Assembly (NCBI GenBank): GCA_017482205.1
Contig: JAFUNK010000013.1
Location: 1-64,000 of the forward strand
From: Lachnospiraceae bacterium
Lineage (GTDB): Bacteria; Bacillota; Clostridia; Lachnospirales; Lachnospiraceae
DNA length: 64,000 nt
Direction of reading: 5' to 3'
Shown: positions 13,353-48,725 of the stretch, in pieces
Numbering within the stretch: position 1 is the first letter of the stretch
Layout of the letters: each line of letters begins with the position of its first letter
The notes under the pieces: model-generated
The model's input: the letters and a program-made list of their open reading frames with translations, nothing else
Told to the model about the DNA's origin: nothing
Databases searched by the model: none
Position numbers and translations under genes: made by a program

Positions 13353-14297
13353 TTATTTTTCGGTAAGCATTAAAAATTTTTCCATGGCATTAGTAGGATT
13401 TGTCTGCTTTTTGTAGGCAAATCCTATTTTCCTTTTTGGGATAGGATCAGCCATGGGAAAAGGAATCAGAGTACCATCTGATAATTCTTTTTCTACAAAA
13501 TTGCTGATAACACAGGCAACGCCCATACCGATTTTCGCAAATTCAATCAGTAAATCCATAGTGGTGACTTCCAACTGTTGTTCGGGGGTAATATCTCTCA
13601 GTAATAAGTATTTTTCTACGTACTGACGGGTAATGTTCTTTTTATCCAACAAAAGAAGTGTGGACTGGGAGAGCAGGTTAGAGAAATTCATGTCTTCCGA
13701 TGTCATGAAATGTCTCCGGTCGTTACTGTCTGAAACCTCTTTCTGCACACGTTCCTTTAAATGTTCCATATATTCTTTGGTAGTCACAAACATATCCTGG
13801 ATTTCTTCCACGGGAGTAAAACATAAATCCCCCATACGGTCACTTTCACCTACCAAACCGATGTCTAACTTACCGCTTTCCAATGCAGCAATGGTCTCCA
13901 AAGAAGACTGACAGTAAATAGAGAGCTTCACATGAGGATTTTCTCTGATATAAGTCTGTAAATAGGGCAGAAGCATATACTTACAAAGTGTGGTACTGAC
14001 ACCAATAGAAAGTTGCCCCACACCCAATTGCTGATTTTTCAAAAGCTGGGCTTCACCCTGATTTATAGCATGAAAAGCAGTCTCAATCTGCTTAAAAAGC
14101 AATTCCCCTTCAGGAGTCAGTTTCACCCCTCGTGAACTCCTTAAAAACAAGGTAGTAGACAAATTACTCTCCAACTTAGAAATAGCCTTAGAAATCGCCG
14201 GCTGTGAAATAAATAAATTCCTCGCCGCCCCCGAAATATTCCCACAGCTCGCCACCTCATAAAAAATATGATATAAATTCAAATTCTGCTGATTCAT
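13353..14297 (-). CDS. LysR-family transcriptional regulator, probable leuCD regulator
   Basis: A 314-residue LTTR. The N-terminal helix-turn-helix (about 1-60) reads NLYHIFYEVASCGNISGAAR with SQPAISKAISKLESNLS and the usual TTLFLRSSRGVKLTPEG wing. The periplasmic-binding-like effector domain follows (about 90-300; KLDIGLVGES, ATMD-like TTMDLLIEFAKIGMGVACV). It is divergent from leuC with about 350 bases between the starts, the usual geometry for an LTTR controlling its neighbour. Ribosome binding site AAAGGAG lies before the ATG. The link to leucine synthesis is inferred from position; the effector may be a 2-isopropylmalate-type intermediate. Confidence 0.9.
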   Translation of the reverse strand: MNQQNLNLYHIFYEVASCGNISGAARNLFISQPAISKAISKLESNLSTTLFLRSSRGVKLTPEGELLFKQIETAFHAINQGEAQLLKNQQLGVGQLSIGVSTTLCKYMLLPYLQTYIRENPHVKLSIYCQSSLETIAALESGKLDIGLVGESDRMGDLCFTPVEEIQDMFVTTKEYMEHLKERVQKEVSDSNDRRHFMTSEDMNFSNLLSQSTLLLLDKKNITRQYVEKYLLLRDITPEQQLEVTTMDLLIEFAKIGMGVACVISNFVEKELSDGTLIPFPMADPIPKRKIGFAYKKQTNPTNAMEKFLMLTEK

Positions 14298-14387
14298 GGT
14301 TTCATGCTCCTTTTATGTATGTTTGAACAGGTGATTTAAACTGGTTAACCTTATCATAACGTTCAATCCCGCTACCACAACGCCTTT

Positions 14388-14552
14388 TATGGTAAGGTGC
14401 CTGGCTAACGATAAATTATTCTGTCAGAGACACTTTGGAAACGTCGGTACTTAGGCGGTGTATTTAACCGCCTTATGTACCGTTACGTTTTCAACTAGCG
14501 AGAGCGCGTCCCGGATAGAATAATTTATCGTTATACCACCCACCATACCATA
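14388..14552 (+). ncRNA. Structured element A: long-stem RNA or MITE with conserved core
   Basis: Basal stem: 14388-14399 with 14541-14552 (one mismatch) and a perfect 17-bp pair 14406-14422 / 14517-14533. Inside, GAC 14429-14431 faces GTCC 14508-14511. A central hairpin has AAACGT-CGGTAC on the left (to 14450), TTA, GGCGGT/ACCGCC with loop GTATTTA, then GTACCG-TT-ACGTTT (14477-14490) with a TT bulge. An AGC-GAGA-GC unit lies at 14497-14505. The same core recurs at 46580-46674 inside a stem of unrelated sequence. No ORF is present. It lies between the divergent LysR and leuC genes, upstream of the leuC promoter. The family is not recognised. Confidence 0.7.
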
Positions 14553-14586
14553 ACTCCAAATAATAGTAAATATAAATTATATATAT

Positions 14587-14649: not shown

Positions 14650-15909
14650 ATGGGAATGACAATGACACAAAAGATACTGGCTGCCCATGCAGGGCTTGAA
14701 AGCGTAGAAGCAGGCCAGCTTATCGAAGCAGATTTGGATTTGGTACTGGGTAACGATATTACCAGTCCCGTTGCGATTAAAGAAATGGAAAAGATGCAGG
14801 TAGACGGTGTGTTCCATAAAGACAAGATTGCTCTTGTACCGGACCACTTTGTACCTAACAAGGATATTAAATCCGCAGAACATTGCAAATGCGTAAGAGA
14901 ATTTGCACGCAAAAACGACATTACCAACTACTTTGAAGTAGGTGAAATGGGTATTGAACATGCACTGTTGCCTGAAAAAGGTCTGACTGTAGCAGGCGAT
15001 GTGATTATCGGTGCAGATTCCCATACCTGTACCTATGGTGCGCTTGGTGCATTCTCAACCGGTGTCGGCAGTACGGATATGGCAGCCGGCATGGCTACCG
15101 GTAAGGCATGGTTTAAAGTACCTTCTGCACTTAAGTTTACTTTAACAGGCAAGCCTTCCAAATGGGTATCCGGTAAGGACGTAATTTTACATATTATTGG
15201 TATGATTGGTGTGGACGGTGCCCTTTACAAATCCCTTGAATTTGTAGGTGACGGTATTGCAAACCTTACGATGGATGACCGTTTCACCATTGCTAATATG
15301 GCAATTGAAGCCGGTGCAAAGAACGGTATTTTCCCCGTTGATGCTTTGGCAGAAGAATATATGAAAGAGCACTCAAACCGTGCTTACAAGATTTACGAAG
15401 CAGATGAAGATGCGGTATACGATGCAGAGTACACCATTGACTTGGCAACCTTAAAATCTACCGTAGCATTTCCTCATCTGCCTGAAAACACCCATACGCT
15501 GGATGAAATTGAGGATATCGCTATCGACCAGGTAGTTATCGGTTCCTGTACCAACGGTCGTCTGGATGACTTACGCATTGCGGCAGAGGTATTAAAGGGA
15601 CGTCACGTGGCAAAGGGTATGCGTTGTATTATTATTCCTGCAACACAGAAGATTTACATGGATGCCATGGAAGAAGGGTTACTTAAAATCTTTATTGAAG
15701 CAGGTGCAGTAGTCAGTACACCTACCTGTGGCCCCTGCCTTGGCGGTTATATGGGTATTCTTGCAGAAGGCGAGCGTTGTGTATCCACCACAAACCGTAA
15801 CTTTGTAGGACGTATGGGTCATGTAAAATCCGAAATTTACTTGGCAAGCCCTGCAGTAGCGGCAGCAAGTGCCATTACCGGTAAGATTTCCGGTCCCGAC
15901 GAACTGTAA
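14650..15909 (+). CDS. leuC: 3-isopropylmalate dehydratase large subunit (HacA/LeuC type)
   Basis: A 419-residue aconitase-family large subunit that, with LeuD, isomerises 2-isopropylmalate to 3-isopropylmalate in leucine synthesis. The cytoplasmic [4Fe-4S] cluster ligands are seen in GSCTNGR and in [26 protein letters not shown] is the substrate-binding segment. The length near 420 residues and the separate small subunit mark the archaeal/Clostridia-type form rather than the longer proteobacterial LeuC. ATG 14650 is chosen over an upstream in-frame start at 14587 because CGGAGG lies 8 bases before it and 14587 is inside the -35 box. leuD follows after 80 bases. Confidence 0.95.
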
Positions 15910-45790: not shown

Positions 45791-45843
45791 AAAAGGTCGG
45801 AAAAGAGTTTACAAAATTGATAGGTAAAACAGGAGAAAATTTT

Positions 45844-46518
45844 ATGAACCGGAAAAATAATCCCCTGAAACAGAAAATTCTGCAATTTAAAGCAGTTATT
45901 TTTGATTTGGACGGTACTTTGGTAGATTCCATGTGGATGTGGGAGAAAATAGACATAGAGTATTTGGGACGCTTCGGTATCCCGTTACCCGAAAAATTGC
46001 AGGAATCCATTGAAGGCATGAGTTTTTCGGAAACAGCGGTGTACTTTAAAGAACGTTTTTCCTTAAAAGATGAATTAGATAAAATAAAATCGGACTGGAA
46101 TGCCATGGCATGTGATAAATACCGGCACGAAGTGCCTTACAAAGAAGGTGCGGAAAACTTTTTACAGTTTTGTAAAGCTAATGGTATTAAACTGGGTGTA
46201 GCTACCAGCAATTCAAGGAAACTGGTAGAGCATGCCGCCGAAGCACTGCGTTTGCATTCTTATATGGACTGTATTATGACGGCCTGCGAAGTACAAAAGG
46301 GAAAGCCTGCACCGGATATTTATCTGGCAGTAGCAGACAAACTGGGCGTATCACCTTCTGATTGCCTTGTCTTTGAAGACATTCTGCCCGGTATTATGGC
46401 AGGAAAAAACGCCGGAATGACTACTTGTGCCGTAGCAGATGCCTACTCAGAAAAGGTCAGAACTGAAAAGATAGCATTAGCAGACTACTTTATAGAAGAT
46501 TATAGCGAATTATTATAA
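45844..46518 (+). CDS. HAD-family hydrolase, beta-phosphoglucomutase-like subfamily
   Basis: A 225-residue protein with all HAD motifs: FDLDGTLVDSMWMW (Asp nucleophile and Asp acid), GVATSNSRKLVEHAAE (motif II), CEVQKGKPAPDIYLAVADKL (Lys of motif III) and CLVFEDILPGIMAGKNAGM (motif IV). An alpha-helical cap follows motif I (about residues 20-90), as in beta-phosphoglucomutase and phosphoglycolate-type phosphatases. Substrate unknown. ATG 45844 follows AGGAGA by 7 bases; an upstream in-frame ATG has none. Element B starts 14 bases after the stop. Confidence 0.85.
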   Translation: MNRKNNPLKQKILQFKAVIFDLDGTLVDSMWMWEKIDIEYLGRFGIPLPEKLQESIEGMSFSETAVYFKERFSLKDELDKIKSDWNAMACDKYRHEVPYKEGAENFLQFCKANGIKLGVATSNSRKLVEHAAEALRLHSYMDCIMTACEVQKGKPAPDIYLAVADKLGVSPSDCLVFEDILPGIMAGKNAGMTTCAVADAYSEKVRTEKIALADYFIEDYSELL

Positions 46519-46531
46519 ATAATATTATCTT

Positions 46532-46716
46532 TTGATGAAGGCTTTTTCTGTATTGGAGGATGGTATTATTTCCCACAAAGGACCTTTGTACAACGTCGGT
46601 GCTTAACGAAAATACCTCGAAGAGGTAATTTGAGTTTAGCAGCCGTTACGTTGTGCAGGAGCGGAAGCGAGTCCGTGTGGGAAATAATTCCATCCGTAGG
46701 ATATAAAGACTTCAAC
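46532..46716 (+). ncRNA. Structured element B: same core as element A, different stem
   Basis: Basal stem GGATGGTATTATTTCCCACA (46558-46577) pairs with 46676-46695 with a single mismatch. Looser pairing extends outward (46532-46545 against 46705-46716). GGAC 46580-46583 pairs with GTCC 46671-46674. The central hairpin has ACAACGT-CGGTGC-TTA (to 46605), a CCTC/GAGG stem with GAA loop, then TTTAGCA-G-CCG-TT-ACGTTGT (to 46653). An AGC-GGAA-GCG unit lies at 46660-46669. GGAA and the GAGA of element A are both GNRA tetraloops. No ORF. The 3' arm reaches to 4 bases before the ribosome binding site (46721-46726) of the next gene. Confidence 0.7.
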
Positions 46717-46733
46717 AAAAAGGAGGAAGTTGT

Positions 46734-48725
46734 TTGTATAACGGATTTTTACCTGTCAGCAGACAGGATATGGAAGAAAGAAATATCGAACAATTGGATT
46801 TTGTATATGTGACCGGTGATGCCTATGTGGATCATCCTTCTTTCGGACACGCCATTATCAGCCGTATTTTGGAGGCACATGGTTACAGCGTGGGAATTAT
46901 TGCCCAGCCGGATTGGAAGGACGATAAAAGTATTACCGTGTTAGGTCGTCCCAGACTTGCATTTTTAATCAGTGGCGGTAATATGGACAGTATGGTAAAT
47001 CATTATTCCGTCTCGAAGAAACGAAGAGCCACAGATGCTTATACGCCCGGAGGGGAGAGCGGAAAGAGACCGGATTATGCCACGGTAGTGTATGGGAACT
47101 TAATCAGACGCACTTACAGGGATGTGCCCATTGTAATAGGAGGTATTGAAGCCAGCCTGCGCCGTATGGCACATTATGATTACTGGTCTGATAAATTCAA
47201 ACGTTCCATTCTGTTAGACAGTCAGGCGGATTTAATTTCTTACGGTATGGGGGAAAAGAGTATTGTAGAAATTGCAGATGCCTTAAACAGCGGTATTGAT
47301 GTAAAAGATATTACTTTTATTCCCGGTACGGTTTATAAGACCAAAAATCCGGAAAACATTTATGATGGGCAGATGTTGCCGGACTATGACTCCATGAAAG
47401 AAGATAAAAGGAAATATGCCGAGAGCTTTGCCATCCAGTATGCCAGCACGGACCCCTTTACGGGAAAGACTCTGATAGAAGGGTATCCCGGTGGTGTTTA
47501 TGTGGTACAAAATCCGCCCCAACCGCCTCTTACAACAGAGGAAATGGACGAGGTATATGCATTGCCTTATATGCGTACCTATCATCCGTCTTATGAGGAA
47601 AAAGGCGGTGTCCCTGCCATTGCAGAAATTAAGTTTTCCCTGATTAGTAACCGTGGTTGTTTCGGCGGTTGCAGCTTTTGTGCACTGACCTTTCATCAGG
47701 GACGTACCATACAGGTACGAAGCCATGAATCCATCATAGAAGAAGCAAAACTTTTAACCGAAGATAAAGACTTTAAAGGATATATCCATGATGTAGGCGG
47801 TCCCACTGCCAATTTCAGACATCCTTCCTGTGAAAAACAATTGCAATACGGTGTCTGTAAAAATAAGCAGTGTCTGTTCCCGAAGCCCTGCCAAAACTTA
47901 AAGGTAGACCATTCGGATTATCTGGCACTTTTACGTAAGTTGCGTGAATTGCCCAAGGTAAAGAAGGTGTTTGTGCGTTCCGGTATCCGTTTTGATTATA
48001 TGATGGCAGATGCAGACGATACTTTTTTTAGAGAACTGGTTAAGCATCATGTCAGCGGGCAGTTAAAAGTAGCACCGGAGCATATTTCCGATGCAGTATT
48101 AAAACGTATGGGCAAGCCCGAAAATGCAGTGTATGAGAAATTTACCGCAAAGTATAAAAAACTCAATGAACAGTTGGGATTAAAGCAGTATCTGGTGCCT
48201 TATCTGATGTCTTCCCACCCGGGTTCGACTTTAAAGGAGGCTATCGAACTGGCAGAATACTTAAGGGATTTGGGCTATATGCCGGAGCAGGTACAGGATT
48301 TTTATCCTACACCTTCCACCATATCCACCGTTATGTATTACACGGGATTAGACCCCAGAGATATGAAACCGGTTTATGTATGTAAAAACCCCCATGAAAA
48401 GGCAATGCAGAGAGCTCTTATCCAGTATCGTAATCCCAAGAACTATGAACTGGTATGTGAGGCCCTAAAGGCAGCGGGAAGAGAAGATTTAATAGGCTTT
48501 GACAAGAAATGTCTGGTTCGTCCCCGTCAACTTTCTATGGAGAGAAATAAACATTCCCAAGAAAAAAAGACTGACTTGGTCAGTCAACGTGAGAAAGGTA
48601 ATTTTAAAGCAGGCCAATCGGGAAATAGGACAACGAACAGTAAGCAAACTAAGGGAAAGTCTAATCAAACTCCAAATAAGCCTAAAAAAACCATTCGAAA
48701 TGTACACAAAAAGAAAACCAAATAA
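46734..48725 (+). CDS. YgiQ-family radical SAM protein
   Basis: A 663-residue protein. The radical SAM core has [20 protein letters not shown] with the CxxxCxxC cluster (C-FGG-C-SF-C), preceded by the N-terminal domain ([14 protein letters not shown]) and followed by [17 protein letters not shown] and [20 protein letters not shown]. The C-terminus is basic and low-complexity. YgiQ proteins are widespread radical SAM enzymes of unknown reaction. The start is TTG 46734, 7 bases after AAGGAGG. Element B lies directly upstream and could influence its translation or transcript processing. Confidence 0.9.

Follow-up and report, generated by a model that had tools for sequence, protein, structure and literature searches.

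Two elements, A and B, in a window from a Lachnospiraceae draft genome (the window being the whole 64-kb stretch of DNA analyzed) are probably copies of a non-autonomous mobile palindromic element of about 170-220 nt, REP- and MITE-like in character, that has spread through Lachnospiraceae-type genomes. They apparently belong to a large family of small mobile elements without an earlier description. If so, bacteria of the gut and rumen would commonly carry this mobile element, which lies outside Rfam and is present in 62 or more copies in some genomes.

Anatomy and distribution of the family

From its ends inward, the element has a pair of inverted arms, then an inner stem about 20-30 bp long and finally a core of ~100 nt (Table 1). 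A sequence-only reading of the window had placed a pair of structured elements here, and their positions and long inverted arms were confirmed by the sequence itself, by self-matches between the strands and by comparison of the predicted folds with shuffled sequences. The strands of A match each other at 14387-14553 with 70% identity. Its fold reached -81.3 kcal/mol (z -11.49) and that of B -82.7 kcal/mol (z -8.34), with 0 of 200 dinucleotide shuffles as good in either case; the reverse strand of A also folded well (-79.7, z -9.06), as expected of any long palindrome. In the predicted fold of B, pairing of the arms continues outward to about 46530-46720. The core motifs which that reading had called common to A and B are present in both the sequence and the alignment, and the basal arms are indeed unrelated in sequence. 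The replacement of GAGA by GGAA, which it had also pointed out, is variation within a GNRA loop found by eye in 21 of 21 aligned copies from the same genome. The window holds only these two copies. The LysR-type and aconitase-family genes diverge around A, and the neighbors of A and of B are unrelated to each other according to Pfam.

Table 1. Parts of elements A and B and their neighboring genes (positions in the window).
Feature	Position	Strand	Basis
Element A, 5' inverted arm	14387..14425	+	Local alignment to reverse complement of 3' arm
Element A, conserved core	14419..14516	+	Covariance model R1 match, 85.2 bits; predicted fold
Element A, GC-GAGA-GC (GNRA) hairpin	14498..14505	+	Sequence; aligned columns 101-108
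Element A, 3' inverted arm	14514..14553	+	Local alignment
Element B, 5' inverted arm	46558..46577	+	Local alignment; predicted fold
Element B, conserved core	46571..46679	+	Model R1 match, 106.5 bits; predicted fold
Element B, GC-GGAA-GC (GNRA) hairpin	46661..46668	+	Sequence; alignment
Element B, 3' inverted arm	46676..46695	+	Local alignment
LysR-type regulator gene, neighbor of A	13353..14297	-	ORF; Pfam HTH_1, LysR_substrate
Aconitase-family gene, neighbor of A	14653..15909	+	ORF from 14587, read from ATG at about 14651; Pfam Aconitase
HAD-type hydrolase gene, neighbor of B	45817..46518	+	ORF; Pfam
Radical SAM protein gene, neighbor of B	46734..48725	+	ORF; Pfam

DNA searches with A and B as queries revealed further copies in the genome that contains the window. 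The covariance model R1 was built on an alignment (A1) of 21 copies from this genome, leaving out L019, which carries a long insert, as well as L002, L020 and L023. This own genome is a draft of 2,160,243 bases in 28 contigs, 73.7% complete, and its closest relative among those searched is about 75% identical over long stretches; most of the compared genomes are likewise drafts. The homolog search suggested by the sequence-only reading gave 63 R1 matches when 150 of 439 candidates of the own genome were scored: 62 reached at least 55 bits, and the last is a fragment at a contig end. No near-identical copies were seen among 22 aligned ones. Together with relatives, 26 of 61 genomes had matches, all of them in the same genus (26 of 37 genomes, own included), as against 0 of 24 from other genera of the order. 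Copy number among congeners ranged from 0 to at least 63, and two genomes, G012 and G017, may hold more than the 63 found in each, since 63 candidates were scored per genome. Across the order, with at most nine candidates scored per genome, 63 of 392 genomes matched R1 at E <= 1e-6, representing 31 of 173 genera, and all 63 positive genomes fall in one family.

A pattern scan of genome records gave at least 117 stretches, mostly Lachnospiraceae among the titles listed; other depositor titles among the matches listed were Blautia, Eisenbergiella, Mediterraneibacter, Acetatifactor, Lachnoclostridium, [Clostridium] symbiosum, Clostridia and Muribaculaceae. The Muribaculaceae-titled records (L090, L117, L149) belong by name to another phylum and reflect either mislabeled drafts or spread beyond the family. 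Element B had no blastn match at E 1e-3 in plasmid and phage collections, and one viral contig gave a single pattern match to the element. The Rfam check, also suggested beforehand, yielded no match on the element, either for the window at the gathering score or for 15 loci at a permissive E-value, the weak matches falling elsewhere. Among the listings, abstracts and passages of open-access literature that we searched, none described the family.

Pairing in the core and in the arms

The core is a helix junction with a basal GAC/GUC helix, a long arm containing the near-invariant helix AACGYCGG/CCGYURCGUU with a two-base bulge, an apical hairpin that occurs in at least two exchangeable forms, and a GC-GNRA-GC minihairpin. 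The covariation suspected from A and B held up in the family alignment: of the 28 core pairs predicted by RNAalifold, 19 changed on both sides while remaining paired, giving a covariation score of 0.492 versus 0.192 in shuffles, and 94.0% of cells were paired versus 78.7% (0 of 500 shuffles as high for both measures). Slid controls reached at most 0.126 for covariation and 44.4% for pairing; the measure of further pair types was not significant for the core (53 of 500 shuffles). Among 103 distinct rows from 105 matches in other genomes, a search pattern for the minihairpin loop gave GNRA in 85, another four bases in 11 and neither in 7, and the long-arm helix was almost unchanged.

We then compared G-U with A-C cells in these 103 rows, which are not independent events and come from an alignment fitted to the model. 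The basal columns of the core contained 40 G-U versus 12 A-C cells (26 versus 2 in the two columns adjacent to the junction), helix P2 9 versus 6, and the apical part 64 versus 49, with 38 of those A-C cells from one column of other architecture. Within a G017 subfamily (26 of 27 distinct copies, from 28 selected of which one was identical), P2 comprised 205 Watson-Crick, 3 G-U and 0 A-C cells, and copies differing at one P2 column showed 42 compensated versus 22 uncompensated differences. From these patterns we read the core as a strand-specific fold, as RNA or single-stranded DNA (ssDNA), the G-U excess in parts of it making a role for its folded single strand possible. At one locus orthologous between G017 and the genome G027 (L204 404-499 and L205 363-461, respectively), the arms are near-identical and the apical hairpin type differs, as if that hairpin had been swapped as a block with another copy. 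The apical loop of L055 (1501-1638; C2:47543-47680 in the own genome) contains an additional long hairpin, with runs of A and T, that resembles a two-way terminator.

Inverted arms flank the core in 22 of 22 own-genome copies examined. In a set of 33 of the 62 own-genome copies (the 30 best-scoring plus three), inverted similarity measured against swapped partners was significant at 20-40 nt (p = 1.5e-16) and 40-60 nt (p = 7.2e-10) from the core and at no distance beyond 60 nt, so that the arms end ~60 nt from the core. The arms of different copies are often unrelated in sequence yet self-complementary, and similar cores can be accompanied by outer arms that appear unrelated by eye (for example L013, L014, L015 and L018). 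Many own-genome arms contain AAAAAG...CTTTTT. Near-perfect arms were seen in L092 (1563-1825, 80 nt) and L147 (7590-7828, 68 nt); palindromes of such length are unstable in many bacteria.

The G017 subfamily has its variable stem between conserved ends, and its 26 copies comprise 543 Watson-Crick, 16 A-C, 8 G-U and 4 other stem cells. One stem column is G-C in 14 copies, T-A in 11 and C-G in 1, with the intermediates absent. Copies differing at one to three stem columns nevertheless showed 123 uncompensated versus 83 compensated differences, the ratio turning at four or more columns, and this prevalence of uncompensated differences among the most similar copies argues against pure one-step rewriting of the stem. 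At the L204/L205 locus the few arm changes are all uncompensated. Though a single locus, it favors change while the element propagates, or swapping between copies, over continual repair on site. Selection for RNA pairing on the element strand would predict many more G-U than A-C cells among arm mismatches; the counts were 30 to 24 in the own genome (G000; 30 copies) and 14 to 25 in G017 (up to 40 copies). This lack of an excess speaks against selection acting on the RNA of a single strand, and such selection on the basal stem is unsupported. Judged from sequence patterns, arm pairing is probably kept at the DNA level, or on two strands, for which an RNA role is conceivable. Covariation alone, accordingly, is no proof of RNA.

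Two mechanisms are left that could keep the stem paired, namely selection of the folded form as the element propagates and template switching, which can create and mend hairpin stems according to the available text of PMC8794818. Like the present hairpins, those described there show coupled changes in the two arms, among them double transversions that lack intermediate states; in that text they are shown for RNA genes, whereas here many differences among the most similar copies are uncompensated. The family is a natural test case of whether selection or template switching keeps hairpin stems paired as their sequence changes. In L045 (1433-1666) and L055 (1442-1695), the inverted arms extend into the 3' ends of neighboring genes (19 and 20 nt of ORF), where either the element supplied the gene ends or the arms are inverted copies of host sequence. 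Arms unique to their locus in many own-genome copies, along with these overlaps, would fit acquisition of arms from the target at insertion. We did not adopt that reading because in the G017 and G352 subfamilies the variable stem sits between subfamily-conserved parts, and because stop codons supplied by the element explain the overlaps equally well.

Core and arms together bear on the idea that the family spreads via an RNA copy, as SINEs do, with the core bound by a reverse transcriptase (a group II intron enzyme, for instance) and self-primed copying as the origin of the arms. The prevalence of the GNRA loop in other genomes and the G-U excess next to the junction fit such a route, as do variable ends and direct repeats of 9-11 bp. 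The arms, however, have no G-U excess and are inherited within subfamilies, and GC-GNRA-GC forms very stable hairpins as DNA too; we regard this route as quite improbable.

Insertion, subfamily ends and head-to-head neighbors

Mobility was assessed by matching G017 loci to G027, a genome about 92-97% identical to it along long aligned stretches; one of the comparisons covered 11 loci in full and one in part. The second site of L225 (17301-17506) carries the element in G017 and lacks it in G027, and a sequence that is single in G027 occurs twice in G017, the two copies differing slightly (ACATTACTG / ACATCACTA). The L211 element is likewise missing in G027. At the second site of L222, G027 lacks a stretch of about 350 bases that holds the element and another hairpin; at L226 the element is missing, and what remains is a hairpin of a second type that has its outer ends in common with it. 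G027 keeps only a short relic at L232, and the second element of L224 is partially deleted there, leaving one arm tail. The L204/L205 pair is present in both genomes. The remaining, less clear-cut sites comprised L228, where G027 has about 2.3 kb of other sequence; the first site of L225 and the first element of L224, absent together with other sequence; L209 and L229, with only one flank matched; and L212/L222 first and L227, with contig ends or a single flank.

Direct repeats were found at the expected place in one G017 subfamily, where 3 of 26 copies had exact repeats over 10-11 bp (0.0 expected) and the mean score was 2.77 versus 0.84 for swapped pairs (p = 0.0008); the element ends in this subfamily vary by a few bases. 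With no fixed place required, 3 of 72 copies reached 10 bp (about 0.9 expected), all three in G017, and 0 of 33 own-genome copies had 10-bp direct repeats. In another genome, G352, six copies at unrelated places have one core in common and are near-identical over the 35-55 nt that flank it, representing a recent burst of the element; no clear target duplication was seen among these six. Several G352 copies (L277, L281, L283, L284) abut another repeat ending in AGTGACAAAAATC, as if mobile hairpins stacked on each other's ends.

Shared ends were detected only inside subfamilies (GGTAATTGCG...CGCAATTACC in G017 and TATACTTTATTG...CAATAAAGTATA in G352), and a terminal inverted repeat common to the whole family was not found. 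G017 also contains a second repeated hairpin with the center ACGGGCTCCGAAGCAGTGGCAAGTCGCCCTTA, a stem of about 30 bp and outer ends in common with the main family, which it often adjoins (L266 884-1039, L265 about 1990 on the minus strand, and the left flank of L226); many matches to it occur in G027. A search with the G017 end motifs, which is a weak test (14 places, 8 regions examined), revealed neither an autonomous parent nor a mobilizing enzyme.

These ends raise the alternative of ordinary MITEs, in which a transposase reads the fixed terminal inverted repeats of a subfamily, the core is a passenger or host-related, and pairing is a by-product mended by template switching. Common ends within the two subfamilies and on the second hairpin type would follow from this, as would direct repeats of ~10 bp; the double stem changes without intermediates (G-C in 14 copies, T-A in 11) agree with it as well, given the capacity of template switching to make and repair stems (PMC8794818, available text). 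Yet the core persists across 31 genera although the ends change from one subfamily to the next, the near invariance of AACGYCGG/CCGYURCGUU over 103 distinct rows is not what a passenger core would show, and the one shared locus (L204/L205) shows no compensated arm change. We consider ordinary MITEs unlikely.

Neighboring copies follow an orientation rule. Within 600 bp, the pairs listed comprise 27 distinct head-to-head, 2 same-direction and 0 tail-to-tail pairs. A first survey gave 24 pairs, all minus-then-plus with the 5' sides facing; 22 are distinct, as two stem from contigs that appeared a second time, and one pair of loci represents orthologs in G017 and G027. The 392-genome survey added, among the matches listed, five more head-to-head pairs, one plus-plus and one minus-minus. 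Both same-direction cases are tandem duplications in G357 (L290, L291), each duplicated stretch holding one element. Plus-then-minus neighbors lay 943 and 1147 bp apart, and none was seen within 600 bp; in the own genome, no two copies of any orientation are neighbors at this distance. The genes flanking pairs show all orientations, indicating that the rule is not imposed by gene context. Partners may come from different subfamilies (L233), and the partner L231 has its own direct repeats; the pairs therefore look like separate landings. The rule provides a testable handle on the target choice of such elements.

The mobile-element reading that we favor draws on presence and absence between close relatives, the spread in G352 and the ~10-bp direct repeats of some copies. 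In the process we envisage, an enzyme encoded elsewhere would recognize the folded core as an ssDNA hairpin, a cruciform or, less likely, RNA, and would need the stem paired with its sequence free. Both stem arms would then drift together through selection for pairing during propagation, template switching between arms, or both. A copy landing beside an old one would adopt the head-to-head orientation, and old copies would survive in intergenic positions. Those of the own genome often lie between convergent genes, where the long hairpin could serve as a barrier to transcription from both sides. Counting against this explanation are the end-motif search in G017, which found no enzyme or autonomous relative, direct repeats that are clear in few copies, and variable ends, along with the uncompensated stem changes (G017 subfamily, L204/L205), a convergent excess confined to the own genome and the G-U excess of the core. 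Tentatively, and with rather more doubt than belief, we also consider a transposon recognized by structure, whose enzyme reads a folded single strand (the GNRA hairpin, the junction and the two-base bulge of the near-invariant helix) and whose copying can rewrite both arms from one template. This would explain stems that drift yet stay paired as well as strict head-to-head landing; we know of no such mode for REP, MITE or IS200-type elements.

Gene context and comparison with known repeats

Using mechanical ORF calls, the same 33 own-genome copies lay between convergent genes in 14 cases, between codirectional genes in 16 (8 in the same and 8 in the opposite orientation) and between divergent genes in 2, with 1 unclassified. 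The convergent share, 14 of 32, compares with 3 of 59 adjacent ORF pairs of the window (p = 1.4e-5). The excess was not seen in other genomes, where 9 of 60 classified copies were convergent, 17 divergent, 16 same and 18 opposite (copies at edges, 13 in number, and those belonging to pair loci were left out), against a background of 30 convergent, 39 divergent and 149 codirectional gene pairs.

The own-genome copies could be old, immobile and selected as 3'-end hairpins of genes, acting as two-way terminators or mRNA stabilizers. The convergent excess fits, as do the lack of near-identical copies among the 22 aligned and the many arms with AAAAAG...CTTTTT, and the missing G-U excess would likewise follow if pairing were required on both strands. 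Against it, other genomes lack the convergent excess, and scanning for terminator patterns gave no hit at A and, on both strands of B, just a six-pair hairpin of the apical loop; a terminator at either element was rejected on these grounds. We take this role seriously as a possibility while doubting it, and it is compatible with mobility.

A family of cis-regulatory RNAs or sRNA genes would account for the covarying core with its GNRA hairpin. The orientation to codirectional genes is balanced, however, both in the own genome (8 versus 8) and elsewhere (16 versus 18), which argues against a riboswitch; the neighbors of A and B are unrelated, copy number varies from 0 to at least 63 among congeners, and copies are present or absent between close relatives. 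The balanced orientation and variable copy number disfavor a riboswitch, leader or sRNA, and we judge this explanation very improbable indeed. The earlier proposal of a structured ncRNA or RNA-bearing MITE thus survives as regards a real family with MITE-like mobility, while its ncRNA part, as gene or cis-regulator, finds no support, in view of the balanced orientation and the arms without G-U excess.

By the tests run, the element resembles REPs and MITEs in behavior and is probably not a REP and only partly a MITE. REPs of the GTAG and CGTC super-families, as described in the available text of PMC3733652, are multi-copy intergenic palindromes that measure 20-40 bp, have a simple stem and bear a tag, either GTAG or CGTC. 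Their dimers have opposite orientation, predominantly head-to-head in the CGTC and most GTAG families, and partner types may differ (PMC3733652). Our family shares the multi-copy intergenic palindromes, the head-to-head neighbors (assuming that "head" is equivalent) and the partners of mixed type, but is 170-220 nt long with a junction core of ~100 nt and arms of about 60 nt, outside the REP size and simple-stem definition. The Y1 transposase (PF01797) was absent from five of six element-bearing drafts (73-99% complete) and present in G016, for which reason mobilization of the RAYT/IS200 type was rejected; size, stem and Y1 enzyme together set the element apart from REPs. In the same available text, CGTC REPs have no known enzyme, and neither Firmicutes nor Clostridia is named.

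With MITEs, whose traits are partly described in PMC3733652 (available text), the element shares its short, non-coding, intergenic nature, terminal inverted repeats within subfamilies and ~10-bp direct repeats in some copies. It differs in having a conserved center instead of conserved ends and no family-wide terminal repeat, and the G017 end-motif search found no parent transposon; the partial assignment rests on these ends shared within subfamilies only and on the missing parent. MRSC-65-2, in the text available from PMC11109978, is a single long stem with the repeat UYCCGG found in diverse phyla, and its authors allow that the structure acts as DNA. Both families have dozens of copies, a covarying fold and inconsistent gene orientation, whereas ours has a junction core with a GNRA hairpin and occurs in one family of the order examined.

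In 93 of 105 hits from other genomes (those near sequence ends excluded, some by hand), CGTCC follows the stem in 26 copies versus 0 in a far window; it is absent at the stem ends of A and B. As GCGTCC, it lies 10-50 nt past the core in many copies of other genomes (e.g. L087, L103, L111, L124 and L140), reminiscent of the CGTC tag of some REPs.
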